This document shows, piece by piece, positions 2,581-22,874 of a stretch of 22,874 nt of DNA (the first letter of the stretch is position 1; every line of letters begins with the position of its first letter). This DNA comes from a virus: positions 1 through 22,874 of IMG/VR virus record IMGVR_UViG_3300033156_001230; one strand, written 5' to 3'. Both the position numbers and the translations under genes were made by a program. Under the pieces are notes generated by a model. It had not been told where the DNA came from. It did not search any database and saw only the letters and a program-made list of their open reading frames with translations.

Positions 2581-3025
2581 AAGGCATTCGTCGCCCGGTC
2601 GTGGCGATCTCCCAAAAGCCGTCTTCGTTCTTCTTGAACCAGTCGCTTCGACCGCAGCAGACGGCCACCGCTTGGACCGTCGATCCGATCGCGTCGGCGA
2701 TCTCCGCAGACGTGGCCGCCCGCCCGGACAATGCAGCCAGGTAATCGTAGATGCGCTCCTTGAGGCTCTTTCCGTCTAACCCGTCGGACCTCTTCGAGTT
2801 CTGTTTTGCCGGCGCGCGGCAATTGAGCTCCCCGGCTCGGATCGCCCGGATTTTTTCCAGCGTCATCAGCGACCGCAATTCCTGCTGTGCAGCGGCCACG
2901 CGTTGTTTGGCCTGCTCGATCTCCTGCGCCAGCCACTCCTTGGCCCCGGCCCCATCGAGGGTGACTAATAGCTCGGCCGGCGACATGCCGTCGGTCGTCG
3001 CGTCGTTCCGTTTCGCTTTGGCCAT
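2540..3025 (-). CDS. Winged-helix DNA-binding-like protein with N-terminal coiled coil, 161 aa
   Basis: I chose the start at 3025 because GGAAGGA lies just upstream and the ATG overlaps the stop of a small ORF (TGATG). The residues upstream in this frame read as another gene's shadow. Residues 20-60 are Gln/Glu/Ala-rich and probably helical. Residues about 85-140 (KSLKERIYDYLAAL, then TSAEIADAIG, then DGFWEIA) fit a winged helix: an HTH followed by a beta wing. This suggests a transcription regulator or DNA-binding accessory protein of the early region. The C-terminal tail overlaps the next gene. The specific family is unknown. Confidence 0.75.
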   Translation of the reverse strand: MAKAKRNDATTDGMSPAELLVTLDGAGAKEWLAQEIEQAKQRVAAAQQELRSLMTLEKIRAIRAGELNCRAPAKQNSKRSDGLDGKSLKERIYDYLAALSGRAATSAEIADAIGSTVQAVAVCCGRSDWFKKNEDGFWEIATTGRRMPYDRQRSSPIECRR

Positions 3026-3153
3026 CAGTCCTTCCTTTCTTTCGAGAAAATCTTGCCCGGGCCGGCCGCGGAGTCCTCGCGTTTCCGCTTGGGCGTCATG
3101 CCGACCGGCCCGGGCTTCCACCGGGGGGCAGGTGCGTCACCCGTCACGTTCAC
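3025..3153 (-). CDS. Short basic proline-rich ORF, 42 aa
   Basis: This is a GTG-initiated ORF with GGGAG four bases before the start. It has a basic, proline-rich sequence (PAPRWKPGPVGM, then TPKRKRED). Its stop overlaps the ATG of the winged-helix gene as TGATG, the kind of junction used for coupled translation. It begins only about 12 bases after the U-tract of the integrase terminator. GTG at 3147 and ATG at 3099 are alternative starts. No known family. Support comes from the ribosome site and the stop/start overlap, not from homology. Confidence 0.45.
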   Translation of the reverse strand: MNVTGDAPAPRWKPGPVGMTPKRKREDSAAGPGKIFSKERKD

Positions 3154-3164
3154 AGTACTCCCAC

Positions 3165-3193
3165 AAAAAAAGCCCCGCCGACCTGCTCGGGGC
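3165..3193 (-). terminator. Rho-independent terminator after the integrase gene
   Basis: On the minus strand GCCCCG (3193-3188) pairs with CGGGGC (3177-3172) across a 10-nt loop and is followed by seven U residues. It lies 33 bp after the integrase stop and directly before the short ORF at 3153. Confidence 0.85.
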
Positions 3194-3225
3194 ACACTGC
3201 ACTTGCCCTGTAACGGCGGGATAGA

Positions 3226-4137
3226 TCAATCCTGCCACGGCCGCGGCAACACCTCGGCCAGCGACGGCCCCGGGGCGACAAGCGGATTGACGTAGCTCTT
3301 CCGCGCCACCGCCGGCGAATGACCAACCGCGGCGGCGGCCCATCCAATCCCGCGAGCCGCCGCCGCGTAGGACTCGGCCGTGCGTCTGAGCGCGTGGAAT
3401 TTGTGCCGCCGGTCGTCCGGTAGGCCCGCGTCTCGCAGAATCTCTCCGAACTCGACCCAGATCTGTCGGTGGCGGTACGGATACGGCACAAGCCGTTTCC
3501 GCGATGGAGGCACGGTGCGGCGGATCAGATCGATCGTCTCGGAGTGAAGCCGGTAGAGCCGGTCGCAGCGCCGGCCCTTGGTGTTTTCGGCCGGTACGTG
3601 CCAAGTGCGGCGCTGAAGATCGACTTCTTCGAGTTTGGCCTTCAAAACTTCCCCGATTCGGCAGCCCGTGTCCCAGATCAGCAGCACGATCAGCCGCCAG
3701 TACATCCGCGTCGGCACGTGTTCCCAACGTCCGGTCTGCCGATCGCAGGCGGCCAGAATCCGCGCCACCTCGTCCAGACTCCAGGCGACCGGCAGCCGCG
3801 TCGGCTCCCGCAGGCAGGGCACTTCCGGCGGGGGCTCGATCAGCTCCGCTGCTGCGGCGTGTCGCCAGAGCGTGAGGATTGCCCGCCGCTTGCTGTTGAC
3901 CGTGGCCGAACGCGGTGGCGGTCCATCGCGCAGCCACCGCATCCACTCGATCACCGTTTTCCGCTGTAGGTCTGTCAGCCGGACTGAGGCCCCCGCAAAC
4001 CGGTCCAACAGCCGCACCGAGACGGCGAGTTGCTGGGCCGTCAACTTGGACAGATCGAGCCGTTGGTCGATGTAATGGTCGAGATACGCTTGCAGTGAGG
4101 TGGTGGGCCGAGGAAGCGGATTCGCACAGACAATCAT
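3226..4137 (-). CDS. int: Tyrosine-type site-specific integrase, 303 aa
   Basis: The catalytic set of phage integrases is complete: R160 in TGCRIGEVL, K187 in NTKGR, H248-A-L-R251 in KFHALRRT, H273 in VGHS and the nucleophile Y282 in KSYVNP. The N-terminal 100 residues form a helical SAM-like core-binding domain (starting about TSLQAYLDHYIDQRL). There is no separate arm-binding domain, so it is of the shorter, XerC-like build. The start at 4137 has GAGG 7 nt upstream. It lies between two strong terminators and next to an excisionase-like gene and a tRNA-like attachment segment. It should carry out integration and excision of this element. Confidence 0.95.
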   Translation of the reverse strand: MIVCANPLPRPTTSLQAYLDHYIDQRLDLSKLTAQQLAVSVRLLDRFAGASVRLTDLQRKTVIEWMRWLRDGPPPRSATVNSKRRAILTLWRHAAAAELIEPPPEVPCLREPTRLPVAWSLDEVARILAACDRQTGRWEHVPTRMYWRLIVLLIWDTGCRIGEVLKAKLEEVDLQRRTWHVPAENTKGRRCDRLYRLHSETIDLIRRTVPPSRKRLVPYPYRHRQIWVEFGEILRDAGLPDDRRHKFHALRRTAESYAAAARGIGWAAAAVGHSPAVARKSYVNPLVAPGPSLAEVLPRPWQD

Positions 4138-4828: not shown

Positions 4829-4903
4829 TCGAGAAAGCCGGGGTGGTTCCACGCCTACACAGCACGCGCCGGGCCCTTACGGGTGACCGCCACCCCGGCA
4901 AAG

Positions 4904-4955
4904 TGGGCGATACTGGACTCGAACCAGTGACCCCTAGCTTGTCGAGCTAGTGCTC
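4904..4955 (-). other. tRNA-Val(GAC)-like 3' segment, probable phage attachment core
   Basis: On the minus strand the piece reads as the 3' two thirds of a tRNA. It has the end of a D-stem (GAGC), an anticodon stem CTAGC/GCTAG, the loop TCGACAA with GAC at the anticodon positions, a variable GGGTC, a T-arm ACTGG-TTCGAGT-CCAGT, and the acceptor strand ATCGCCC plus discriminator A. No matching 5' acceptor (GGGCGAT) is found upstream, and position 33 is C instead of the invariant U. It is therefore not a normal tRNA gene. Phages that integrate into tRNA 3' ends carry exactly such a copy in attP, beside int. A weak D-arm-like stem (GCTCGC/GCGAGC) extends to about 4981. Confidence 0.6.
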
Positions 4956-4994
4956 GCGGGTAACCTCTTCGGGGGGCGAGCAAGCGCCACGCGG

Positions 4995-5022
4995 TTTGTG
5001 GCATTGCCACACTATTTGTGGC
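4995..5022. repeat. Paired TTTGTGGC direct repeats with an inverted GCCACA between
   Basis: TTTGTGGC occurs at 4995-5002 and 5015-5022. The first copy also forms a TGTGGCA/TGCCACA-type inverted repeat with the bases in between. Short repeated sites beside an att core are often integrase or excisionase arm sites. The gene-free stretch 4829-5178 shows only this and the tRNA-like segment. Confidence 0.35.
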
Positions 5023-5178
5023 GGCTTGGGTGATTTCCCCTACACCTGATCGGGCCGTGACGGATTCCGTCCTACCGGCGGCAAGAAATGCTTGACAAGC
5101 GTTTCGGCCCGGTGTTTCTTGACGTTCAAAATCGGTCCGTACTCGTTCAACCAACCTCAAATCCAGGGAGATGAGACG

Positions 5179-5838
5179 ATGCGATTGAGCTTTGTGATGG
5201 CGATGTTGCTTGGGTTGTCCGTGCAGGTGGGGATTGCCGCCGAACCGACCTTTCGTTCGCTGGCGGCCCGTACGGCGCTGGCGGCCCGTACGGCTTATCG
5301 CCAGTACCAGCAAGACCTCGCCAAAGCGGAAGCCACTTACCGCGCAAGCGTCAAGAAACTAGATGCCGCTTATGGCGCCGCACTCCAGCGGGTGCAAAAA
5401 CAGTACTGTGACGCCTTAATCAAGGCAAAAAACGAGGCCATGGACGCCCATGACCTAAACGACGCCAACGCGATACAGCAGGCAATCACTGCACTGGAGC
5501 CGAGTCTTTTGCGAACAATGCAATCGGTCGTTATTACGTCGCCTCGCAACAAATTGCGGCGACGGCTTATCGGAACAACGTGGCGACAACGGGGTACGGA
5601 GAGCACCAAGAATGACGTGCAGTTTCTCGCCGACGGCAAGACCAACGCGGGCGGCAATTGGGCTGTGATCGACGCCAACACTATTGTTGTCGGGCGGATT
5701 GCGCCGTCCAAACGGGTGTATGATGGAACGACATACCTTGCGCTGTGGACGTTTTCACGCAATGACAGGGCCGAGATCAGACCCTATGTAGCATATTCAT
5801 ATTCGCAGACCTTCGCTTGGGAACTTGTGCAGCCGTAG
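5179..5838 (+). CDS. Secreted planctomycete-type protein with helical hairpin and beta domain, 219 aa
   Basis: I chose the start at 5179 because GGGAG lies upstream and the first 20 residues form a signal peptide (MRLSFVMAMLLGLSVQVG, cut after AA). Residues about 30-115 are Ala/Lys-rich helices ending in HDLNDANAIQQAITALE, a phrase very like the D-LDEAN-I--AI--LE motif of many planctomycete secreted proteins. Residues about 135-219 form a beta-rich domain with TTWRQRG, ending in FAWELVQP. It runs opposite to all phage genes and lies next to the attachment segment, so it looks like a host-derived passenger gene. An 18-bp tandem duplication doubles ALAART after the signal peptide. The function is unknown. 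Confidence 0.8.
   Translation: MRLSFVMAMLLGLSVQVGIAAEPTFRSLAARTALAARTAYRQYQQDLAKAEATYRASVKKLDAAYGAALQRVQKQYCDALIKAKNEAMDAHDLNDANAIQQAITALEPSLLRTMQSVVITSPRNKLRRRLIGTTWRQRGTESTKNDVQFLADGKTNAGGNWAVIDANTIVVGRIAPSKRVYDGTTYLALWTFSRNDRAEIRPYVAYSYSQTFAWELVQP
5260..5295. repeat. 18-bp tandem duplication (in frame)
   Basis: The two adjacent units differ only in the last base and encode ALAART twice just after the signal peptide of the secreted protein. Confidence 0.92.
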
Positions 5839-6239: not shown

Positions 6240-6848
6240 CAGGGGCGAGACGCCAGCACCCAAGGTTTACTTTCGTTCACCAGCCCCGCCCAGTCCCGGC
6301 TCCATTGGGGATCGATCCGGGCGACCGGTTCGATCGGTTCATTGCCGCGGCGCTCGTAGCCTCCCTTGCCCATCGCCGAGAGGTGCCGGGCCCGACTGCA
6401 TGGCCGGATAGCCGCCGACCGCCAGAAACGCCTCGCGGGTGAAGCCCCAGGCGCCGTGGAAGAGTCCATTCGTCGGCTTCCGCTCAAGTCGCGTGCGGCG
6501 GTCGATCCACACCTCGTCCGGCCGCGACCAGGGCACACCCGACTTCATAACCGCAGCCATGACTTCGAGGTGCCAAGGCAGATAGATGTCATCGTCGTCC
6601 CACACGGCGAACGCGTCCACATCGGCCGAAGCCAGCGCGGCACACGCGTTGCGCTTCTCGCCGAGCGTGCGGAACCGCTTTCCCAGCGACACGAGCCACC
6701 AGCCGGGGCCGGTTTGCTCGTCGTACTGCCCGGCGTCGTCCAGCACGATCAGCTCGCGCTGTGGATACGTCTGGCGCTCAAAGGACTCGATGGCCTCGGG
6801 CAATTGCTGTGGCCGATTGTAGGTACAGCAAAGACAGGCTATCTTCAT
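6236..6848 (-). pseudogene. GT2-family glycosyltransferase with out-of-frame internal deletion
   Basis: It starts at 6848 by ATGA overlap with the upstream GT2 gene. Residues 1-154 are a good GT-A domain: CTYNRP at the start, IVLDD, and the metal-binding VWDDDD (84-87), ending at GGYPAMQSG. The frame then runs to a stop at 6339. A second frame picks up near 6400 with HLSAMGKGGYERRG, a phrase like the C-terminal end of this phage GT2 group (compare HTYHGGNTW in the neighbour), and stops at 6236. The part that should hold the catalytic base and the intervening strand is missing. I read this as a deletion of perhaps 25-40 codons that also changed the frame. The product is probably inactive. Confidence 0.65.
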
Positions 6849-7561
6849 GCGGCGCTCGGGGGCAGGGGCAATGCGGGAAACCGGACGCGGAATGCTTCGT
6901 ATTCCTCCGGCGTCATCGGGCGGGTGATTTGACGCAGGATGTGGCCACGGTCCCACGTATTGCCGCCGTGGTAGGTGTGGACGTAGAGCAGCGGGTTGTT
7001 TTCCACCACAGCGGGCCGGCCGTGCTCGCGGGCCAGGTCGGCCAGGAAGAATGAATCTTCGCCGCGACGGGCCGCGTGGTACCGGCATCGCGTCGAGCGT
7101 GGAAACAACACCGTGCCCTCAATGGCGTGCCAGGGGCGCTTCCAATAGGCGTCGTGGACGCCTACGTCGTGCGACCACAGGTCGGCAATCGTCCATCGCC
7201 GCAGGCAGACGATGCCGCTCTTGCCCAGCGCGGCGACTTGCGTCGAGATACGCTCGGCAGCGTACCAATCGTCGTCGTCCCACTGGATGATGTACTCGCC
7301 TGTGGCCCACTCGATGCCGATGTTCCGCAACTCACCCAGCGTCAGCCGCTCGCCAGAAGCGTTCCGTGCGCCCCGGACATGCAACTCTCGGACGCGGTCG
7401 CACGGGGTCTTGAGCACTGAATCCACTCCGTCGTTGACGATGAGCAGACCGGCGTTAGCATAGTCCTGGGCCAGGAAGCAATCCACCGCCACGCGAGCCA
7501 GCGCGAGACGCTGCCGGCTCTTTCCGGTGACCATCATGGCCGTGACGCTCGGTTCATTCAT
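6845..7561 (-). CDS. GT2-family glycosyltransferase, 238 aa
   Basis: This is an intact GT-A fold enzyme. It has an N-terminal nucleotide-binding strand (TAMMVTG), LLIVNDG at 39-45, the metal-binding QWDDDDW (93-99), an acidic ED pair at 168-169 as likely catalytic base, and a C-terminal VHTYHGGNTW. It should transfer a sugar from a nucleotide sugar; donor and acceptor cannot be told. The start at 7561 overlaps the end of the sulfotransferase gene by 8 bases, and its own stop overlaps the next GT2 start (ATGA). Four genes are thus tightly coupled as a glycan-modifying cassette downstream of the tail genes. Confidence 0.88.
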   Translation of the reverse strand: MNEPSVTAMMVTGKSRQRLALARVAVDCFLAQDYANAGLLIVNDGVDSVLKTPCDRVRELHVRGARNASGERLTLGELRNIGIEWATGEYIIQWDDDDWYAAERISTQVAALGKSGIVCLRRWTIADLWSHDVGVHDAYWKRPWHAIEGTVLFPRSTRCRYHAARRGEDSFFLADLAREHGRPAVVENNPLLYVHTYHGGNTWDRGHILRQITRPMTPEEYEAFRVRFPALPLPPSAA

Positions 7562-8267
7562 CGAACCATCCCTCCAACTCGGAACCTGCGTAATGTCGCT
7601 TGAGATCTTCGTAGTTCTCGACGACCTCCCGCAACGGCCAATAGGGCTTGATTGTCCGGGGGCGTACGGGCACGCGTTCGACGCCCAGGTAATCCTGGAT
7701 CCGGCCGATGTGGTGTTCCCAATCGGCCACCAACGATTCGTAGTCGATCATCAAGGCGGCTGGCACCAAGGAGCGAGCTCGTTGCCAGAGCAAGCGATAG
7801 CAGTCCACGTCCGCTTCGAGGTCTTCGGGATCCACGCGGACCGGTGTGGGCGACGACGCGGGCGAGTAGTATTGCCAACGTCGTGTCTGGCTGGCCACCA
7901 AGTGAGAGACGTGTCGCCGAAGGAGATTGCGGCGGTTTAGGGCGATAACTCGGATGCCCTTGCCCTGTTCGTGAAGACGGCGGGCCAGTCGAAACCAATC
8001 CAATGGGGAGTTGTGCCGCCAGGGATAGGCGGATTCGCCGAGCGGGACGCGGTGGACACAGAACCCCGAGACGTCCGGGCCGCCGCGCAACCGTCTGGAT
8101 AGCACCTCTTCCACGTCTTCTTCCGTACGGGCCTCACAACCCGCCGCGTCGCGGTTGAAGATCTCGCCCGCACAACGGATCTGGGGATGGCGATCCAAGG
8201 CCGTGCGGAGCATGTGGGTGCCACAACGCGGAAACGATTCGATCACGAACGGGAGTGCGCGGGTCAT
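7554..8267 (-). CDS. Sulfotransferase, 237 aa
   Basis: The start at 8267 has GGAGGTG upstream and an ATGA overlap with the GT4 gene. Residues 9-20 (IESFPRCGTHML) form the 5'-phosphosulfate loop of PAPS-dependent sulfotransferases. IALNRRNLLRRHVSH supplies the Arg and Ser that bind the 3'-phosphate. LMIDYESLVADWE and IQDYLGV fit the C-terminal part of the fold. The enzyme moves sulfate from PAPS to a hydroxyl or amine of a glycan or other acceptor. In a phage late operon, surrounded by glycosyltransferases, the likely acceptor is a sugar on the virion or host surface. All expected motifs are present, so it should be active. Confidence 0.88.
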   Translation of the reverse strand: MTRALPFVIESFPRCGTHMLRTALDRHPQIRCAGEIFNRDAAGCEARTEEDVEEVLSRRLRGGPDVSGFCVHRVPLGESAYPWRHNSPLDWFRLARRLHEQGKGIRVIALNRRNLLRRHVSHLVASQTRRWQYYSPASSPTPVRVDPEDLEADVDCYRLLWQRARSLVPAALMIDYESLVADWEHHIGRIQDYLGVERVPVRPRTIKPYWPLREVVENYEDLKRHYAGSELEGWFDE

Positions 8268-8315
8268 CGTGCCACCTCCACCGACGCGAAGAGTTGTCGC
8301 CAACCGGCCAGGATC

Positions 8316-9346: not shown

Positions 9347-9354
9347 GATCATTG

Positions 9355-9403
9355 CAAATTGAAAATTGAAAATTGAAAATTGGAAATTGAAAATTGAAAA
9401 TTG
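9355..9403. repeat. Heptamer array, CAATTTT type, 5' of GT4
   Basis: On the minus strand about seven copies of CAATTTT (variants CAATTTC and CAATTTG) run up to the GT4 start codon, which lies within the CAATG end of the array. No Shine-Dalgarno site is visible. Confidence 0.95.
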
Positions 9404-9684: not shown

Positions 9685-9744
9685 CAGTAGTGGATAGTGG
9701 GTAGTGGGTAGTGGGTAGTGGATAGTGGATAGTGGGTAGTGGAT
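9685..9744. repeat. Heptamer array, GTGGATA/GTGGGTA type (plus strand)
   Basis: About eight units with period 7 fill the gap between the poly-Ser gene stop and the Cys-rich gene start. Read in the coding direction (CCACTAT/CCACTAC) the array has no stop codon in any frame. Confidence 0.95.
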
Positions 9745-9754
9745 AACCGATCGC

Positions 9755-11278
9755 TTACGCTCCCGATGAACTGCTCGATGATCCCGATGAACTGCTCGAT
9801 GATCCCGATGAACTGCTCGATGATCCCGACGAACCGCACGGAATGCACTCGACCCATTCCTCCTCGGTAACCTCCGTGCCCGGCGGCAGCGTGATGTCTT
9901 GCAGGCAGAACTCGATACAGCCGTCTTCGCAATGGAAGTTGGTCATCACCGTAATCGTCAGCGGCCCGGAAGAACTGCTCGACGAAGAACTGCTGGAAGA
10001 GGAACTGCTGGAAGAGGAACTGCTCGACGAAGAACTGCTCGACTCGGGTGGAAAGGCGATCGGGTACTCCACCGGAAAACACTCCGGCGGCAAGGAAGCC
10101 ACCAGTGTTTTGGGCCAGTAGCTTCCCTGGGAATCCTGTTCGAGCAGGAACCAACTCCAGTCATCCCAGGCGGTGGTTTCCCAGCCGGCGTTCGGTGGGA
10201 GACTGAGGTAATAGACCGGCGCGTCGTCGTACCAAGTCCGCAGCGTCTCGAAGAGGTAGTCCGCCACGTCGTTGATCTGCTGGGTGTTGTAGATCTCGCC
10301 GTCGCGTTCGCGGGCCGGCTGGGTGAGATAGACGGTGAGGTTCACCGCGCCTGAGCCGTTCCGCTGGATGATGTATCGCTGGCCGCTGGGCCACAGGTAG
10401 CGAGGTTGGGCCAGCGGCAAGGAGAAGGCCACCTGGCCGAGACGGCGGAGGTTGCCGCCGGTGGCATCATCCGGCCGGCCGACGATCCGCGGCCTTTGGT
10501 CGAATTGATTGGTGACCGACTCGCTGGCCTCGGCAGGCGTCTGGAGGTGATAGTACTCTCCGTCGAACGTGACGCGCTGTCCACAGCAGGCGGCCAGACC
10601 GTCGAGAACCAGGCCGGCGGGCAGGTGCCGAGTCCAGGCCAAGGCGTCCGGCGGTACTGGCGGTTCGACGAGCCCTTGGACGCGAGACGCGAAGGGCAGC
10701 GCGCCGACGATCTCCTGCCAGGTCTGCGGCTCGATCAGTTCCACCATCTGCCGCCCCTCCTGGAACCGCCGGTCCACCAGCACGGCCATCGCCAGGTCGG
10801 GCCGGATCGTCGGCAGGCATTTGAGGATCTGTAGCCGATAGGTCCGTTGCGTCGTGCCCTGCTGGCCGTTTTGGCCGGAGAATTCCCAAGTGACCTCTGT
10901 GTCCAGCGCGCTGCGGATCGCCTCGGGATCGGTCCAGATCAACGCCATGGCGAAGCGGCCGGCCCCGGTGGGAAACCAGAGGGAATTCGGCTTGAAGGCC
11001 GGCGGCCGGGTCTGCCAGGGCCAGACGGGAAAACCGGCCTGTTCATCCACGCGGTTGCACAGATAAATGCCCTCCTGGACCGGCTGGCCGGCCGAAGAGG
11101 AGAGGCGGCCCAATTCCCGCAACGGGCTCCGCGGCCGATGGACACCGGCCAGCAGGTAAGGGTCGGGCCCGAAGACCGGGGCAAGCTGCGACGGCAGCCA
11201 CCGCTGGAGATATTCCTGCAATCGAGCGTCCGGATCAGGCCAGTAGATCGGGATGTCGCGACCCAAAACCTTGGTCAT
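9755..11278 (-). CDS. Phage structural (tail/appendage) protein with long poly-serine C-terminus, 507 aa
   Basis: The start at 11278 (MTKVLGRDIPIYWPDP) has AAAGGA upstream; an ATG six codons earlier is less likely. The first roughly 390 residues are a mixed alpha/beta structural protein with no motif I can name. Then come 25 consecutive serines (codons at 9968-10042), a 40-residue block with four Cys (CEDGCIEFC, CIPC), and three SSSSSSG repeats at the end. All six serine codons are used in the tracts, which argues that serine content is selected and not just DNA slippage. It lies between tail genes and the glycosyltransferases, so the serines are candidate O-glycosylation sites. By position it should be a tail fibre, tip or appendage protein. 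Confidence 0.78.
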   Translation of the reverse strand: MTKVLGRDIPIYWPDPDARLQEYLQRWLPSQLAPVFGPDPYLLAGVHRPRSPLRELGRLSSSAGQPVQEGIYLCNRVDEQAGFPVWPWQTRPPAFKPNSLWFPTGAGRFAMALIWTDPEAIRSALDTEVTWEFSGQNGQQGTTQRTYRLQILKCLPTIRPDLAMAVLVDRRFQEGRQMVELIEPQTWQEIVGALPFASRVQGLVEPPVPPDALAWTRHLPAGLVLDGLAACCGQRVTFDGEYYHLQTPAEASESVTNQFDQRPRIVGRPDDATGGNLRRLGQVAFSLPLAQPRYLWPSGQRYIIQRNGSGAVNLTVYLTQPARERDGEIYNTQQINDVADYLFETLRTWYDDAPVYYLSLPPNAGWETTAWDDWSWFLLEQDSQGSYWPKTLVASLPPECFPVEYPIAFPPESSSSSSSSSSSSSSSSSSSSSSSSSGPLTITVMTNFHCEDGCIEFCLQDITLPPGTEVTEEEWVECIPCGSSGSSSSSSGSSSSSSGSSSSSSGA

Positions 11279-11295
11279 CCGCACGAATCCTTTCA

Positions 11296-11400
11296 AAGTG
11301 GATAGTGGATAGTGGATAGTGGATAGTGGGTAGTGGATAGTGGATAGTGGATAGTAGAACTACCCTTCACTCTTCACTCTCCACTAACCACTATCCACTG
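11296..11400. repeat. Inverted pair of heptamer arrays (GTGGATA then its complement)
   Basis: A GTGGATA array (about 11296-11355) is followed by a complementary CCACTAT-type array (about 11370-11400). The transcript could fold into a long hairpin between the two genes. The right arm supplies the TAG stop of the upstream gene. Confidence 0.92.
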
Positions 11401-11894
11401 CTACTGGCCAACTCCCAATCGAACGGCAGGCCGAACTCCAGCGTCAGGCCCCAGAGCAGCGTCTGGGGACCGCCCAGGCGCTGGAGGAGTTGCGGGCCGC
11501 TGGAGCGGATGCAGTAGACCAATTGCCGCTGCGCGACCTCCAGGTCCCAACCGACCAGCGCGGCCAGCACCTGGCGCTTCCGCTCGTAAAGCCCGCGGGA
11601 GGCATTCAGGAGGGTTTTTTCTGCCTCGTCGGCCCGGTCCAAGGCGCAGCGGACGTAGATAGTCACCGCGAAGGTCCAGGCCTCGGTGATGTTGCCGGGG
11701 AACTGCTCGGCGGGCTCGAAACGGCCTTCGCCCGGACTGACGGCCAGAAAATAGTCGCCGCCCCGCGGGACTTCTTCCAGGGCCAGCGGTTGCCAGGCCA
11801 AAAAGCATTGGTTGGCATCGAGGCCCAATTGCTCGCGGAGCCGGGCCAGGATGGCCGTCAAGAGTGCGATGGGGGTGGTGTCGGGTCGGTCCAT
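11391..11894 (-). CDS. Phage structural protein of unknown function, 167 aa
   Basis: It begins MDRPDTTPIALLTAILARLR, with an N-terminal helix, then a beta-rich middle (FAVTIYVRC) and LLWGLTLEFGLPFDWEL. The size and layout resemble small tail-completion or terminator-type proteins, but the position far downstream of the tail tube is unusual for one. A CCACTAC heptamer array runs directly to the ATG, leaving no ribosome site. The last residues (SSG) and the TAG come from the downstream array. Its reading frame is clean and it lies in the late gene series, so it is very likely real; the role is a guess. Confidence 0.78.
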   Translation of the reverse strand: MDRPDTTPIALLTAILARLREQLGLDANQCFLAWQPLALEEVPRGGDYFLAVSPGEGRFEPAEQFPGNITEAWTFAVTIYVRCALDRADEAEKTLLNASRGLYERKRQVLAALVGWDLEVAQRQLVYCIRSSGPQLLQRLGGPQTLLWGLTLEFGLPFDWELASSSG

Positions 11895-11996
11895 GGGTAG
11901 TGGATAGTGGTTAGTGGATAGTGGTTAGTGGATAGTGGGTAGTGGGTAGTGGTGAGTGGTGAGTGGTGAGTGATCTCAATTCACCATTCATCATTC
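11895..11996. repeat. Composite heptamer array (GAATGAY, CACTCAC, CCACTAN types)
   Basis: In coding direction the order is GAATGAT-type units after the stop of the 545-aa gene, then CACTCAC units, then ACTACCC/ACTATCC/ACTAACC units running into the ATG of the 167-aa gene. Confidence 0.93.
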
Positions 11997-13650: not shown

Positions 13651-13707
13651 GAGTGGTGAGTGGTGAGTGGTGGGTGGTGAGTGGTGAGTGTTCCCCATTC
13701 GTCATTC
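13651..13707. repeat. Composite heptamer array (GAATGAC and CACTCAC types)
   Basis: After the stop of the 624-aa gene the coding strand has GAATGACGAATGG and then six CACTCAC/CACCCAC units. It is the same order as at 11895-11996 and 17052-17090. Confidence 0.92.
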
Positions 13708-17613: not shown

Positions 17614-17670
17614 ACTCACCACTCCCCACTCACCACTCCCCACTCTCCACTCCCCACTCCCCACTCCCCA
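17614..17670. repeat. Heptamer array (GTGGGGA/GTGGTGA in coding direction)
   Basis: About eight period-7 units lie between the stop of the connector gene and the ribosome site of the tail tube gene. The TGA stop of the connector gene lies at its edge. Confidence 0.93.
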
Positions 17671-17671
17671 G

Positions 17672-18175
17672 TCACCTCCCCAACGGCAATCGTCCGCCGC
17701 GTTGCGGATAGTAGCGCCGCATCCGGTCGGGCAATAGGTTCAGTCGTTGGTAATCGACCGCCCGCGGGCCGTCGATCGTCGGCAACCCGGCGTCGCGCTG
17801 ATCGTCGAGCCCGAAGAGCCGCTCGCCGTTGCGAAGCCGGTCGAGATACTCTTCGCACCGCTTGCGGACCGCCTCGACCTGCTCGTGTCCGTATTTCTCC
17901 AGCCGGGCCGACATCAGCCGGACCATGGCCAGCTCGCAGGTCAGATCGACAAGCAGGGCCAGGCTGTTGCCCGTCAGGGCGGCCAGGTCCTCGGGCGTGT
18001 AGATCCCGCCCACCTGCACGGCCGCGTCGACGTAGCCGCTGGCCGCGTCCAACGCGGCGGCCACGCGGGGGTTGCCGATCGCCACATCGCCCGGCTCGCC
18101 CGTGTCGCTGGCCAGGTCCTTCAACACCCGCTCGTCGTAACGAGCCACCAGGTCGCTCGGATTCGCGTAGGCCAT
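17672..18175 (-). CDS. Head-tail connector protein (Mu gp36 / DUF1320-like), 167 aa
   Basis: MAYANPSDLVARYDERVLKD closely follows the Y-tP-DLi-RyGe-el pattern of Mu gp36-like head-tail joining proteins. It is followed by AALDAASGYVDAAVQ (helix with a YVDA phrase) and DLTCELAMVRLM, a helix typical of this family. The family links the portal to the tail. The C-terminus has RAVDYQRLNLLPDRMRRYYP. It is placed between capsid and tail tube genes, as expected. The start has no ribosome site because an array of CCACTAA units runs to the ATG. Confidence 0.78.
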   Translation of the reverse strand: MAYANPSDLVARYDERVLKDLASDTGEPGDVAIGNPRVAAALDAASGYVDAAVQVGGIYTPEDLAALTGNSLALLVDLTCELAMVRLMSARLEKYGHEQVEAVRKRCEEYLDRLRNGERLFGLDDQRDAGLPTIDGPRAVDYQRLNLLPDRMRRYYPQRGGRLPLGR

Positions 18176-18299
18176 GGGATTAGTGGTTAGTGGTTAGTGG
18201 TTAGTGCTTAGTGGGGAGTGAGTAGTGAAGAGTGAACGGTGAAGAGTAGTCCCACTATCCACTATCCACTATCCACTATCCACTATTCACTATCCACTG
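18176..18299. repeat. Inverted pair of heptamer arrays between capsid and connector genes
   Basis: In coding direction about seven GTGGATA-type units follow the capsid gene stop. A mixed middle and then CACTAAC units precede the connector ATG. The two arms are complementary enough to form a long RNA hairpin. Confidence 0.93.
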
Positions 18300-19411: not shown

Positions 19412-19834
19412 CTACGAGCTGCTCAGCACGGGCCAGGCCACGCCGAAGCGGACCTGCACCATGATCTTTTCGTCCTGGCCGCCGTTTTGCAGGGCGATCG
19501 CGCCGAAGTGGGCGTTGCCCGTCCAATCGACGGATACCCCCTTGCCGCCGGTGCCGGCGGTGAGCAGATCGCCGGCGCTGACCGCCTCGCCGAGTTGCAA
19601 CAGGCACACGTCCCCGTCGGTGAAGACGTGGACCGGCTGGCCGGAGACAGCCGCCTTGGGATCGCCACTGACAAGATCGCTCAGCGGCGGCTGGTTGCTG
19701 CCCTCCTGGGAGACGCCCATCAGGGGGTTGGCCTCATCGGTGGCCTGTTCCACCATAAAATTGCCGGTGAGGCAAACGAACCGACAGGGATAGATATCCC
19801 CGTTGGCCACGAGTTGAGGGACTACGTTGGGCAT
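19412..19834 (-). CDS. Capsid decoration protein (DUF2190-like), 140 aa
   Basis: It is a small beta-rich protein between scaffold and capsid genes. It shows the pattern of DUF2190-type decoration proteins: a DVCLLQLGEAVSAGDLLTAG stretch, then GVSVDWTGNAHFGAIAL and a closing VQVRFGVAWPVL. Such proteins bind the outside of the shell and stabilise it. It has a clear AAAGGAG site and compact spacing to the protease/scaffold gene (16 bp). Confidence 0.72.
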   Translation of the reverse strand: MPNVVPQLVANGDIYPCRFVCLTGNFMVEQATDEANPLMGVSQEGSNQPPLSDLVSGDPKAAVSGQPVHVFTDGDVCLLQLGEAVSAGDLLTAGTGGKGVSVDWTGNAHFGAIALQNGGQDEKIMVQVRFGVAWPVLSSS

Positions 19835-19850: not shown

Positions 19851-20561
19851 TTAGTGGTTATCCCCTCCGTTCTTCAGCCGCTGGAGTTCGGCCTCATAAT
19901 CGACCGACTCGCCGTTGAGCGCCTTCCGCTCGCAGACGGCCAACGCCCGGTCGGCCAACTCCCGTTGGTACTTTTCGCGATCGAGTTCCACCGGGGCGTG
20001 CACGGCGGCCGGCAGACCCCGATCCAGGGGCAGCCGCTGGTAGTTCTCGCGGATCACCGTTAGGTGGTCGTCGAACTGCTCGGGCGTCATCCGCTCGGCC
20101 GCGCACCGCTTGGTCTCCTTTTCCAGGTCGAAGGCGTACTGGTTCCGCAGGTCGGCGAGCCTGCTGTAGCGCTCGGCGTTGATGCGGTGGTTCCGCTCGG
20201 TCCGGAGTTCCGCCTGGAGCCGCTCGAAATCGCCTTGCAGCCGGCTGTAGCGCTCGACCATCTCGGACTCGCTCTTTTGGTGCTTCTCGCGGGCGGCCGC
20301 GGCGGCGAACATTTTCCGTTGCTCCTCGGTCAGCGGCTTGCCGTCCACCTCGCCATCCTCCAGGATTTGCCGGGCCTTGCCCGGATCGATCTTGTCGGAC
20401 GGCTGCTGGTAAGGTTCGGGTTCCGGCTCCGTCGGCTCCGTGGCGCCGTTCTTGTCGTCGGCGTCGGATGGGGTGGCCATCCGCTCCTTGATCCACTGGA
20501 GCCAATCTAGCCCGTCCAGCGCCTCGATCAACTGCTGGATGTCCTCTTGCGATAGTGCCAT
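19851..20561 (-). CDS. Nested scaffold protein, internal start, 236 aa
   Basis: ATG at codon 200 of the protease gene (MALSQEDIQQLIEALDGLDW) is preceded by AAAGGAAG six bases upstream, much stronger than the site of the full gene. The product is an acidic, helical, Glu/Gln/Arg-rich scaffold that would be made in excess over the protease. Mu I/Z and lambda C/Nu3 use the same nested design, with the scaffold sharing the protease C-terminus. Confidence 0.65.
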   Translation of the reverse strand: MALSQEDIQQLIEALDGLDWLQWIKERMATPSDADDKNGATEPTEPEPEPYQQPSDKIDPGKARQILEDGEVDGKPLTEEQRKMFAAAAAREKHQKSESEMVERYSRLQGDFERLQAELRTERNHRINAERYSRLADLRNQYAFDLEKETKRCAAERMTPEQFDDHLTVIRENYQRLPLDRGLPAAVHAPVELDREKYQRELADRALAVCERKALNGESVDYEAELQRLKNGGDNH

Positions 20562-21158
20562 GGCATCTTCCTTTCGGTTTCTGATTGGTTTCGAGTCGGT
20601 TTCCTCGGGAACGAACACACTGGCGGCGGCCGGATGCGCAGCCGCGTATTTTTCGATGACCTGCCCGTCGCGCCGGGCGGAGTAGAGCAGACTCAGGCCC
20701 ATGTCCAGCCGTGGCGGTTCGGCGCCCAGCAGGGCGATCGGGTCGATCACCATGCGGTCGTAGCTCTTCTCCAGCCACAGTTCCGGGCTGCGGCGCGGGT
20801 ACTTCTTGACCCGCTCGATGTCCTCGCGGTAGATGTGCAGGTCGGCCAGGACCGCGTATTTCTCTCCCACCTTGCCGAGGCGGAAAGGGCCGGCGAAACC
20901 GACCAGCGGCGGGTCGCCCTTCTGCTCGCCGGGTCTGGGCGTATGGCCCAAGGTGACCGCCGCGTAGTCGCCCGTGGAGTCGATCCGCTGGTTGCACCGC
21001 CGGGCGATCGCCGCCAATTCCTCCCGGCCGAAGCGAAGCCGGCGACCGTCGCGGGCCGTGGTCTGGTGTTCCACCAGCACCGGCACATCGGCGATGGTGA
21101 CGAACCGATCGGCCGGAAAAGGGTCGCCCTGGCGGGATGTCTGGACGGCAGTAACCAT
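19851..21158 (-). CDS. Capsid maturation protease with C-terminal scaffold (Mu I-like), 435 aa
   Basis: The N-terminal 180 residues resemble Mu-type prophage I proteins: VTLGHTP (H72), LVGFAGPFRLG, then HIYREDIERVKKYPRRSPEL, where the conserved R-SPE phrase (S124) lies in the protease core. The C-terminal 235 residues are acidic and then heptad-rich (RLQGDFERLQAELRTERNHR), as in scaffold proteins. An internal ATG with its own ribosome site begins the scaffold alone. The start at 21158 follows an ACAAATC/ATAAATC heptamer array with no ribosome site. It would process capsid and scaffold during head assembly. Confidence 0.78.
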   Translation of the reverse strand: MVTAVQTSRQGDPFPADRFVTIADVPVLVEHQTTARDGRRLRFGREELAAIARRCNQRIDSTGDYAAVTLGHTPRPGEQKGDPPLVGFAGPFRLGKVGEKYAVLADLHIYREDIERVKKYPRRSPELWLEKSYDRMVIDPIALLGAEPPRLDMGLSLLYSARRDGQVIEKYAAAHPAAASVFVPEETDSKPIRNRKEDAMALSQEDIQQLIEALDGLDWLQWIKERMATPSDADDKNGATEPTEPEPEPYQQPSDKIDPGKARQILEDGEVDGKPLTEEQRKMFAAAAAREKHQKSESEMVERYSRLQGDFERLQAELRTERNHRINAERYSRLADLRNQYAFDLEKETKRCAAERMTPEQFDDHLTVIRENYQRLPLDRGLPAAVHAPVELDREKYQRELADRALAVCERKALNGESVDYEAELQRLKNGGDNH

Positions 21159-21162
21159 GTTG

Positions 21163-21201
21163 GATTTATGATTTGTGATTTATGATTTGTGATTTGTGAT
21201 T
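21163..21201. repeat. Heptamer array, ACAAATC/ATAAATC type
   Basis: In coding direction five period-7 units of CACAAAT/CATAAAT type run from the end of the small membrane gene to four bases before the ATG of the protease gene. They encode the last residues (NHKSQIINHKS) of the small protein. Confidence 0.92.
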
Positions 21202-21375
21202 GAGCGACTGCTGGAGCAGCTCCACACGTCGCAGCCGCTGTTCGTACTCGTCGAGCTTCTCGGTCAGCTTGGAAACCATCTTCTCCAGCATCGACAGCTT
21301 GGCCCACATGATCCCGGCAACCATTGCCAACCCGGTGACGTGAATTGCGATCGTGACGATGGCTTCCGTCGGCAT
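21166..21375 (-). CDS. Small membrane protein with coiled coil (holin/spanin-like candidate), 69 aa
   Basis: Residues 4-24 (AIVTIAIHVTGLAMVAGIMW) form one membrane segment. They are followed by a heptad-rich helix (LSMLEKMVSKLTEKLDEYEQ). This simple build is seen in small phage lysis or membrane proteins. AGGA lies 8 nt before the ATG. The last 11 residues are read from a heptamer array, so the original protein probably ended near LLQQS. It lies between the secreted protease and the capsid protease genes. The role is unproven. Confidence 0.7.
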   Translation of the reverse strand: MPTEAIVTIAIHVTGLAMVAGIMWAKLSMLEKMVSKLTEKLDEYEQRLRRVELLQQSLNHKSQIINHKS

Positions 21376-21389
21376 GGTTCGATCCTAAA

Positions 21390-21462
21390 ACGAATGACGA
21401 ATTGGAACCACTAACCACTATCCACTATCCACTACCCACTACCCACTACCCACTACCCACCG
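21390..21462. repeat. Composite heptamer array, reversed orientation
   Basis: On the plus strand ACGAATGACGAATTGG is followed by CCACTAA, CCACTAT and CCACTAC units, so the coding strand reads GTGGGTA. This is the reverse of the orientation at 17052 and 11895. It supplies VGSG and the TAG stop of the upstream gene. Confidence 0.93.
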
Positions 21463-21747
21463 CACCGCCGTTGAGCTTCTTGACCGTCGCTTCGGCGGTC
21501 GCCTCGGCCATCCGCTCTTTGGCCCGGGCCTCCTCGGGCGTGTCCTCGTCGTTCTTCCACCAATCGACGATGGCCGCCTTGGCGGACGTGTAGGCCGTAG
21601 GCCCGACACCGCGGGCGGCGGCCCGAATAATCATCCGGCCGGCCCCGTAACCGACCGCACCCAGGCCCAACAACGGTGCGACCATCTTCCAGAGGATGTC
21701 GGCCAGCGTGGCCCAGAGGTCTCCGCTGGTTCCCAACGTGTCGGCGG

Positions 21748-21779
21748 CGGCGGAAAAGTCGCCCGGCGGAAAAGTCGCC
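21748..21779. repeat. 16-bp perfect tandem duplication (frame-breaking)
   Basis: The unit CGGCGGAAAAGTCGCC occurs twice without a gap, identical over all 16 bases, inside the protease gene. Confidence 0.96.
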
Positions 21780-22041
21780 GCCGACCGCCTCGCCGGCCGC
21801 CTCGCTTAGCGCGGGAGCCACCTGGCGGACCTTCTCTTCCGCCTCGGCCTGGGCCTGTCGCCGAGTCTCGGCCTCCAGGTAGCCGGCCACCGCCTCTGAA
21901 AGGTCTCGCTGGGCGTCGGCCAGACCCTTCAGCGGCTCGGCCAGTGGGGCCGTGTCGATCGTCACGTTCGGCGCCGGGGGCGCGGCGATCTCGATCTTCG
22001 GCAGCGGCGCCTGGGTCGAAGGCGGAGGCGGCGGAGGGGAC

Positions 22042-22107
22042 GGCAGGGTGGGCCAGGCCCCGCCGCCCCCAGGAGGCAGGGTGGGCCAGGCCCCGCCGCC
22101 CCCAGGA
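22042..22107. repeat. 33-bp perfect tandem duplication (in frame)
   Basis: Two identical 33-bp units encode PGGGGAWPTLP twice in the linker after the protease domain. Confidence 0.96.
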
Positions 22108-22428
22108 GCCGGACTCGGGGACGGTTGCGATTGGTTGCGGCGGTAGGGCAACAGATACCAACGGGAAGGATCTTGACAACTCCCGCCCGGACAGCTCGCG
22201 CCGGGCCGCCACTGGGTCGATCCGCGCGTGGCGGCCAACGCCGCCCGGGCCGTTTCGCTCTGCCGGGGATCGCCGAAGGCCGCATAGACGCCCTGGACGC
22301 TCGAGGCGATGCCGAGCGGATCGCCATCTTCCATTCGCGCGGAGACCACGCCCACGATGTGGCGACCGCCCGGGTCCAGCAGGGCCGAGCCGCTGCGGCC
22401 GTCGGCCGGCGGCGGGACGAAGTAGAGC

Positions 22429-22452
22429 CGCGTGCCCGAGCGCGTGCCCGAG
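22429..22452. repeat. 12-bp perfect tandem duplication (in frame)
   Basis: The unit CGCGTGCCCGAG occurs twice and encodes SGTRSGTR in the protease domain before the catalytic Ser. Confidence 0.93.
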
Positions 22453-22874
22453 TAGCCGCGGGCGTGGCCCTGGAAGGCGGTCGGCCAGGCCCCGCGGGCA
22501 CAACCGGCCGAGGTGATCGTTTCTCCCGAGCGGAGCACGTAAGTGGGCGAGGCCAGCGGGACCGTTTTGGGCAGCACGCCGCCGAACTGGTTTTGGGGGA
22601 CGGCCACCAGCGCTACGTCATGCGAGTCGTTACGGCTCGCCACACGGCCTCTGAGGGCACGGGACTGGTGGCCGGCGCGCCAGAACTCGCAGGTCACCTC
22701 GGAGGCCGAGCGGACCACGTGGGCGGCCGTCAGGACCCAGACCTTGCCGCTGGAGATCGCGAAGCAACAGCCGCTGCCGGTCGAGCCGTCCGCGCAGCGA
22801 ATGCGACAGGTGGCTTCGATGGCGTCGCTGAGCGAGGCCCGCACCGGGGCGGCCAGAAGGGCCAGCAGGAGGAT

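Follow-up and report, generated by a model that had tools for sequence, protein, structure and literature searches.

The window, meaning here the whole stretch of 22,874 bp that was analysed, is one entire virus record of the class 'linear', a class that often denotes a fragment. One of its ends is occupied by a gene for a trypsin-like protease, which was already proposed in a preliminary description of this DNA and is borne out by the present analysis; it lies on the minus strand and is followed by the gene of a small membrane protein. Genes were picked by codon-position G+C, a procedure by which some may be missed. The features of the region are as follows:

21446..22874, minus strand: gene of a predicted secreted trypsin-like protease, its 5' end cut by the contig edge and its frame broken once (ORF map, Pfam and the full-length relatives L010 and L012)
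22836..22874, minus strand: C-terminal end of the signal peptide, ILLLALLAAPVRA, whose start lies outside the window (overlap with L011)
22350..22769, minus strand: Trypsin_2 domain with His-Asp-Ser (LTAAHVV, HDVAL, DGRSGSA), from Pfam (residues 36-175), the triad alignment and the fold of the homologous domain of L010
22429..22452, minus strand: exact 2x12-bp tandem duplication, in frame, one copy in L009 and L011
22042..22108, minus strand: exact tandem duplication of 2x33 bp, in frame, located in the Pro/Gly-rich linker, one copy in L009 and L013
21748..21779, minus strand: exact, frame-shifting tandem duplication of 2x16 bp, one copy in L009 and L013
21446..21736, minus strand: C-terminal membrane anchor and tail of the protease in another frame, a 96-aa ORF (profile match 3.3e-47)
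21408..21460, no strand assigned: 7-bp tandem array of the CCACTAC family between the protease and the small membrane gene (repeat search)
21166..21375, minus strand: small membrane protein of 69 aa with one N-terminal segment and a coiled-coil-like rest (ORF and hydrophobicity)
19851..21158, minus strand: next gene, 435 aa, a head protease or scaffold by position only, with no Pfam match

The main open reading frame of the protease in the ORF list extends from 22874 to 21453 and is open at the contig edge. The signal peptide of the preliminary description is present, but the window begins inside it; the missing start is supplied by the upstream sequence of L011, which is identical to the end of the window at 432 of 434 bases. 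Beyond the Trypsin_2 domain a linker rich in Pro and Gly leads to a helical part, after which comes a hydrophobic segment. This last element, the C-terminal membrane segment reported earlier, is indeed encoded, at about 21650-21718 on the minus strand, but it stands out of frame in the window because of the exact 2x16-bp duplication at 21748-21779. The 96 out-of-frame amino acids are 100% identical to those of L009, where they are in frame, and the DNA differences between the two are synonymous only, so the frame break is either very recent or an artefact. Together with the intact genes of L010 and L012, this identity indicates that the protein normally possesses a C-terminal membrane anchor. 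Programmed frameshifting or phase variation of the anchor was considered and set aside: in a second relative with the anchor out of frame (L025, 5258-6518) the change is of a different kind, and both breaks could be assembly errors.

All three duplications in the protease gene are present in two copies in the window against one in each of two covering relatives. Tandem duplications of 12-37 bp, exact or near-exact and in or near open reading frames, are found in the window at 282, 1011, 2069, 5258, 8315, 9321, 9761, 21748, 22042 and 22429, and the units at 2069, 9321 and 21748 have a length that is not a multiple of three; they are either an assembly artefact or real repeat variation. Arrays of the 7-bp unit AGTGGAT/CCACTAC mark many gene boundaries (9688-9745, 11297-11355, 11894-11972, 13651-13690, 17614-17676, 18180-18298 and 21408-21460), arrays of other 7-bp units lie at 9351-9403 and 21163-21201, and such arrays are possibly leader or regulatory repeats. 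Further away from the protease, the window encodes two family-2 glycosyltransferases and a sulfotransferase (6339-8270; Pfam 2.4e-10, 4.5e-11 and 6.3e-12) and a 513-aa protein with a long serine run and Ser/Gly repeats near its end (9755-11296).

The window protease matches Pfam Trypsin_2 (PF13365) at 6e-14 with 53.4 bits, against a curated cut-off of 27.6, and Pfam Trypsin at 5.5e-5; its relatives L012 and L010 reach 43.8 and 48.6 bits with Trypsin_2. The full His-Asp-Ser triad claimed at the outset is in place in every family row that covers the three sites, the window included (29 of 29, in an alignment of 31 rows whose two truncated members keep whichever sites they cover). This alignment omits L013, the duplicates (L015, L016, L022, L027, L031, L033-L050 and L072), the weaker loci L051-L062 and the later-found loci L184, L189 and L190 of class A, as the window's own class of protease is called here. 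Class-A proteases carry several cysteines in the alignment, a CPxGxCP motif and a Pro-rich linker. Their dN/dS ratio lies between 0.15 and 0.36 in seven pairs of genes, and an eighth pair, comprising the 96-aa piece, has zero amino-acid changes.

The AlphaFold model of the L010 protein, in which the trypsin domain has a pLDDT mostly of 80-95 and the linker is poorly predicted, displays the chymotrypsin (S1) fold of the HtrA/Deg family. Foldseek searches with this predicted structure return Rv3671c/MarP first (1.8e-10), followed by DegP and DegS, and VIA-align gives Z scores of 20-22 over about 160-171 residues against HtrA-type chains; among viral structure models (BFVD), trypsin-like proteins of many virus kinds are matched. 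A PDZ domain is absent from Pfam scans of the window protein (to an E-value of 0.01) and of the L012 and L010 proteins (to an E-value of 1). The predicted export, tether and orientation of the protease are such that the signal peptide would export it and the C-terminal helix would hold it in the inner membrane, placing an HtrA/MarP-like trypsin domain on the outer face of that membrane.

Relatives of the protease were collected by pattern and profile searches from viral contigs, from one Pirellulales MAG (G006) and from further genomes of the same order. Within the order, 72 of 396 genomes match the protease profile at 1e-12 with three candidates scored per genome. The core tier (E ≤ 4.4e-72) comprises nine genomes and 10 places, G006 among them, and the weaker tiers are other phage copies mixed with general trypsin-like proteins, Trypsin_2-like proteins being common across genomes of the order. 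The core profile at 1e-15 finds only G006 among 392 genomes of the phylum, with at most four candidates scored per genome. Since few candidates were scored per genome in these searches, as well as in those described below for a papain-like gene in the phylum (eight) and for the membrane gene in the order (13), absences in the genome searches are soft. Searches of 50,697 GenBank phage records detected relatives neither for class A nor for a second class of trypsin-like protease (class B, see below) nor for the papain-like gene. The link to planctomycetes drawn in the preliminary description holds for the relatives, whose hosts are planctomycetes as the Pirellulales MAG and the order genomes show; for the window itself a planctomycete host is something we infer.

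The preliminary description had itself raised the alternative of a host gene at a prophage edge, which the position of the protease at the contig end and the commonness of Trypsin_2-like proteins in genomes of the order would favour. We hold this to be next to impossible, because phage genes lie on the far side of the protease in L011, L010 and L012 and because the core profile, at the depth of the phylum search, recovers no genome other than G006.

Among the neighbours of the protease in the window are a Mu gp36-like connector (17672-18175; Pfam 9.2e-9) and a head scaffolding protein (19412-19834; PHROG 1.2e-11), other head genes of the window being named by position or by eye; the names terminase, portal, ParB, AAA/GNAT and XhlA are throughout assigned by eye, without a family scan. 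In L010, L011 and the window, the protease has portal-like genes on one side and head genes on the other (portal and capsid names by eye or position); it precedes a terminase-like gene in L012, L009 and L013, and is found inside head operons (by eye), without a small membrane gene, in the second-tier loci L075 and L082. To call it a head-module gene is thus correct for the window lineage but not for the family, many members of which stand before the terminase. Such positions in the window, L010, L011, L075 and L082, partly read by eye, could point to a head-maturation protease or an injected virion protein. This is very improbable for a protein with a hydrophobic N-terminus and a C-terminal membrane segment, each present in 21 of the 22 members printed (the exceptions being L029, at the threshold used, and the frame-broken L025, respectively), with several cysteines and with a gene ahead of the terminase in so many relatives. 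As a separate observation, the 32.7-kb phage record of L012 carries a gene for a 397-aa Cas12f/Cas12u3-like protein at 2799-3992 (PADLOC 6e-15 and 9e-13) and a CRISPR-like array of 7 repeats with a spacing of 55-66 bp at 4874-5287, possibly a phage-borne mini type V system.

The small membrane coiled-coil protein that had been noticed beside the protease proves to be a 69-aa product encoded from 21375 to 21166. Its single hydrophobic stretch starts at residue 5-7 in the window, L009, L010 and L017 and is followed by basic residues, from which an N-out/C-in orientation is predicted with the charge rule applied by eye; dN/dS against L009 is 0.19. At 17 of 22 loci a small ORF with a strong membrane segment follows the protease at a distance of no more than 1.5 kb. 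The corresponding count for random windows taken from these loci is 13 of 1909, a comparison that does not amount to a strict probability because the loci are related to each other. Split by tier, the figures are 17 of 18 core loci and none of four second-tier loci (the count is without L011, L013, L017, which equals L072, L023, L027, L067, L069, L076, L077, L079, L080 and L081). The pair of protease and membrane protein put forward in the preliminary description is hence recurrent, but it is not the whole system, a papain-like gene lying upstream in many loci. No holin or spanin profile in PHROG gives a good fit to the genes of the window or its relatives, the lysis matches being weak (0.023-0.44 in relatives and 0.035 for the 96-aa piece of the window). 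Membership of the small protein in DUF2730 (PF10805), the family of Mu gp25, was ruled out by profile tests, with no such match among the matches listed at the cassettes of eight genomes, an hhalign probability of 1.4 and an E-value of 0.87 for the L017 protein.

The small membrane coiled-coil family (A7) occurs in 38 of the 396 genomes of the order, and the slot at the membrane gene holds a trypsin-like gene in 32 of these 38 (eight of class A, 24 of class B). Class B also belongs to Trypsin_2 (3.1e-19 to 5.1e-20 in the four scanned) and has the serine site GDSGGP in the 14 printed; inspection by eye adds a start resembling a signal peptide, a motif of the CxGxCP type and a membrane segment at the C-terminus. 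PADLOC yielded nothing convincing as a defence identity for the protease (best value 0.0017, for L012), and the RT-Protease match of class B (6e-7) spans its trypsin domain and does not convince either. Six genomes are without a trypsin-like gene at the locus: in G508 the papain-like gene stands directly before the membrane gene, G417 and G558 have a secreted cysteine peptidase that by eye resembles C39, and in G363, G401 and G663 the locus is cut by contig ends.

The survey of related phages has thereby uncovered a recurrent string of genes in Pirellulales prophages, usually in the order papain-like, trypsin-like, one of two small unknown families in some cases, membrane coiled coil, ParB-like, AAA/GNAT and terminase-like, the last three named by eye. 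Synteny in the relatives shows that planctomycete phages carry this fuller form of the cassette, in which the protease stands together with an enzyme of permuted-papain type (NlpC/P60-superfamily-like), the small membrane coiled-coil protein and, in some cases, a thioredoxin domain. A thioredoxin-like gene is located near the protease in L010, L012 and L071 and directly after it in the first two (Pfam Thioredoxin 2.8e-5, over the cut-off, in L010 and 3.5e-4, under the cut-off, in L012), and protease and thioredoxin domain are joined in one protein in L178, L180, L181, L183 and L195 (2.9e-20 in L183). In many prophages the class-B protease and the membrane gene are separated by members of the two small families, of ~223 aa (L126, 5298-5966; no Pfam match) and ~290 aa (L125, 5422-6318). 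At L136 (3-581) a class-A-like anchor is joined to a LysM-like end and the protease is missing; the LysM was seen by eye, has no Pfam match and is not claimed.

The papain-like gene is found upstream of the protease at 8 of the 19 class-A core loci with upstream sequence (L021, L026, L029, L063, L067, L070, L071 and L072) and at 22 of 24 class-B loci, the other two being cut, and its profile recovers it at the membrane-gene locus in 27 of the 38 genomes. Across the phylum it is detected at 1e-5 in six of 392 genomes, G006 included, and it was not found in the available stretch of L010, L011, L012, L023-L025, L030, L064-L066 and L069. A viral-contig search found 39 papain-like loci, which are not all independent (L169 and L021 are one record, and L185 and L186 share their peptidase). 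In 29 of them a trypsin-like gene follows within 2 kb downstream; the others have a C39-like secreted peptidase by eye (four: L182, L185, L186 and L193), a subtilisin-like protein (L187; thermitase 1.6e-37, signal peptide not clear) or no recognised peptidase (five: L159, L161, L174, L175 and L179). The occurrence of unlike peptidase folds at one place suggests that proteolysis itself is what the slot conserves. Papain-like loci without a recognised protease, among them L134 and L159, which have the membrane gene as well, indicate that the protease is not essential everywhere.

In the papain-like protein H46, Y115 and C151 are invariant (13 of 13 aligned), with His before Cys as in the permuted NlpC/P60 order, and H46 and C151 are probably the catalytic residues. 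The protein has a GDLLL motif, its best PDB match is 3kw0 (BcPPNE; E 0.0013 over 72 positions), one divergent copy matches YiiX weakly (6e-4, below the model cut-off), and the copies scanned have no Pfam match. As the AlphaFold model (pLDDT 32) is unusable as a fold, the assignment rests on the motif order, 3kw0 and the weak YiiX match. Canonical members of the NlpC/P60 group cut peptidoglycan, and permuted members target lipids, Tox-Act1 being a phospholipase, according to the accessible text of PMC12994826; lipid-amide substrates are proposed for YiiX and BcPPNE in the accessible text of PMC3142127. By analogy with these proteins, the papain-like neighbour may act on lipids and not as a hydrolase of the wall.

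The frequent position of the papain-like gene just upstream, in the proportions given above for both classes, also bears on an explanation by which the protease serves maturation only: it would have a single substrate, the phage papain-like enzyme or another envelope enzyme, and spare host proteins. The precedent is MarP, the top structural match, which activates the NlpC/P60 enzyme RipA in the accessible account (PMC6628586). We judge this explanation distinctly improbable, however, as L010, L011, L012, L024 and L030 are without a papain-like gene in the available stretch. The papain-like protein would also have to be brought across the membrane beforehand, as no signal peptide is obvious in it by eye.

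Membrane-held proteases of the DegS and MarP kind act in stress responses, and the fold of the phage protease is theirs. For MarP such a role is given in the accessible account (PMC6628586). A role at the host surface can accordingly be envisaged, in lysogenic conversion or superinfection exclusion, where the prophage protease would trim surface proteins or receptors or protect the envelope instead of contributing to lysis; the different places of the gene in different phages, like those of a moron, and its absence from some cassettes would agree with this. Set against it are the same strand and place in a recurrent string up to the terminase, in many genomes and viral contigs, and the recurrent partners. 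As common strand and place up to the terminase suggest late co-expression, we regard a surface role as unlikely.

In agreement with the preliminary description, which saw no peptidoglycan hydrolase, the scan of 20 window ORFs, that of the protease among them, recognises no such domain, and neither do the scans of 10 ORFs of G001 (32.7 kb), nine of G782 (41.1 kb) and one of L024. In eight cassette-bearing genomes Phage_lysozyme (PF00959) has no match, Amidase_2 (PF01510) none near the cassette and a single one on another contig, and NLPC_P60 (PF00877) none near the cassette, two on other contigs and a third, below the cut-off, ~4 Mb away. The scope of this search is 40 scanned ORFs and three families in eight genomes, in records that are fragmentary. 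Anammox planctomycetes possess peptidoglycan, as stated in the accessible text of PMC4432595, which may make some means of cutting the wall necessary; none was found within the search scope. Among the papers listed by a literature search, with subscription journals mostly outside its coverage, none deals with the cassette or with the phage opening of the planctomycete envelope.

The reading we favour, and to which we give an even chance, is that the protease and its cassette form a host-envelope exit (lysis) module in which the protease acts outside the cytoplasm. The genes would be expressed late, and the small membrane protein would provide a gating or release step. Membrane lipid, lipoprotein or wall would be the target of the papain-like enzyme, and the tethered protease would cut envelope proteins, a task fulfilled elsewhere by spanins, which serve here as the model; alternatively it would mature its partner enzyme in the manner of MarP and RipA. 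Thioredoxin, where it is present, would handle disulfides. Against an exit module speak the window lineage itself, in which the protease lies amid portal-like and head genes and the papain-like gene was not found, and L075 and L082, which sit in head operons without a membrane gene. A bolder version, close to the original proposal of a lysis pair acting in place of a peptidoglycan hydrolase, would have exit proceed without any dedicated peptidoglycan hydrolase, by means of the tethered protease, a lipid-directed permuted NlpC/P60 enzyme and a gating membrane protein, the protease slot being conserved in function while its occupant is exchanged among peptidases without relationship to one another (trypsins of two classes, fusions of thioredoxin and trypsin, C39-like and subtilisin). 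We advance this version only tentatively and consider it rather unlikely, and the same doubt attaches to its corollary that the exit chemistry differs from that of the well-studied double-stranded DNA phages.

The recurrent protease, papain-like and membrane gene set of planctomycete viruses may thus be a host exit route. If the cassette is a lysis module, it offers a small and concrete gene set to test in a phylum with an unusual envelope, and an example of phage exit to which proteolysis makes a conserved contribution. Should the set serve to modify the surface instead, it represents a recurrent way in which planctomycete prophages alter their hosts.

Among known systems, the phage protease is most readily compared with the S1C HtrA-type enzymes MarP (Rv3671c), DegS and DegP, with which it shares the chymotrypsin fold and the His-Asp-Ser triad. 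DegS is membrane-held, with its protease domain outside the cytoplasm. So is MarP in the accessible account (PMC6628586), and the same is predicted for the phage enzyme. Unlike these systems, the phage protease combines a signal peptide with a C-terminal anchor, shows no PDZ domain in the Pfam scans, has the CPxGxCP motif and the Pro-rich linker, and is the product of a phage gene; identity is 16-25% in the listed alignments. A similar trypsin fold occurs in two BFVD models from uncultured tailed phages, A0A8S5MFA3 (2.1e-9) and A0A6J5NXY4 (4.1e-9). The papain-like neighbour resembles the permuted NlpC/P60 proteins YiiX, BcPPNE and Tox-Act1 in its His-before-Cys order, GDLLL motif and 3kw0 match, and differs from them in having no Pfam match and in its setting, the gene not being seen in the window's lineage.

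The arrangement of the cassette invites comparison with the lysis region of phage Mu, where the genes run endolysin, spanins, gp24, releasin gp25, gp26 and terminase. The cassette differs from it in the presence of a protease, and no SAR endolysin, spanins or DUF2730 match are recognised. Since the profile tests reject DUF2730 membership, a similar place is all that is claimed for the small protein. Mu gp25 is N-out/C-in with a short outer part, as described in the accessible text of PMC9239132; such an orientation is predicted, by the charge rule applied by eye, for the small membrane protein, both are encoded between envelope enzymes and terminase genes, and by this analogy the small protein may work at a place similar to that of gp25.
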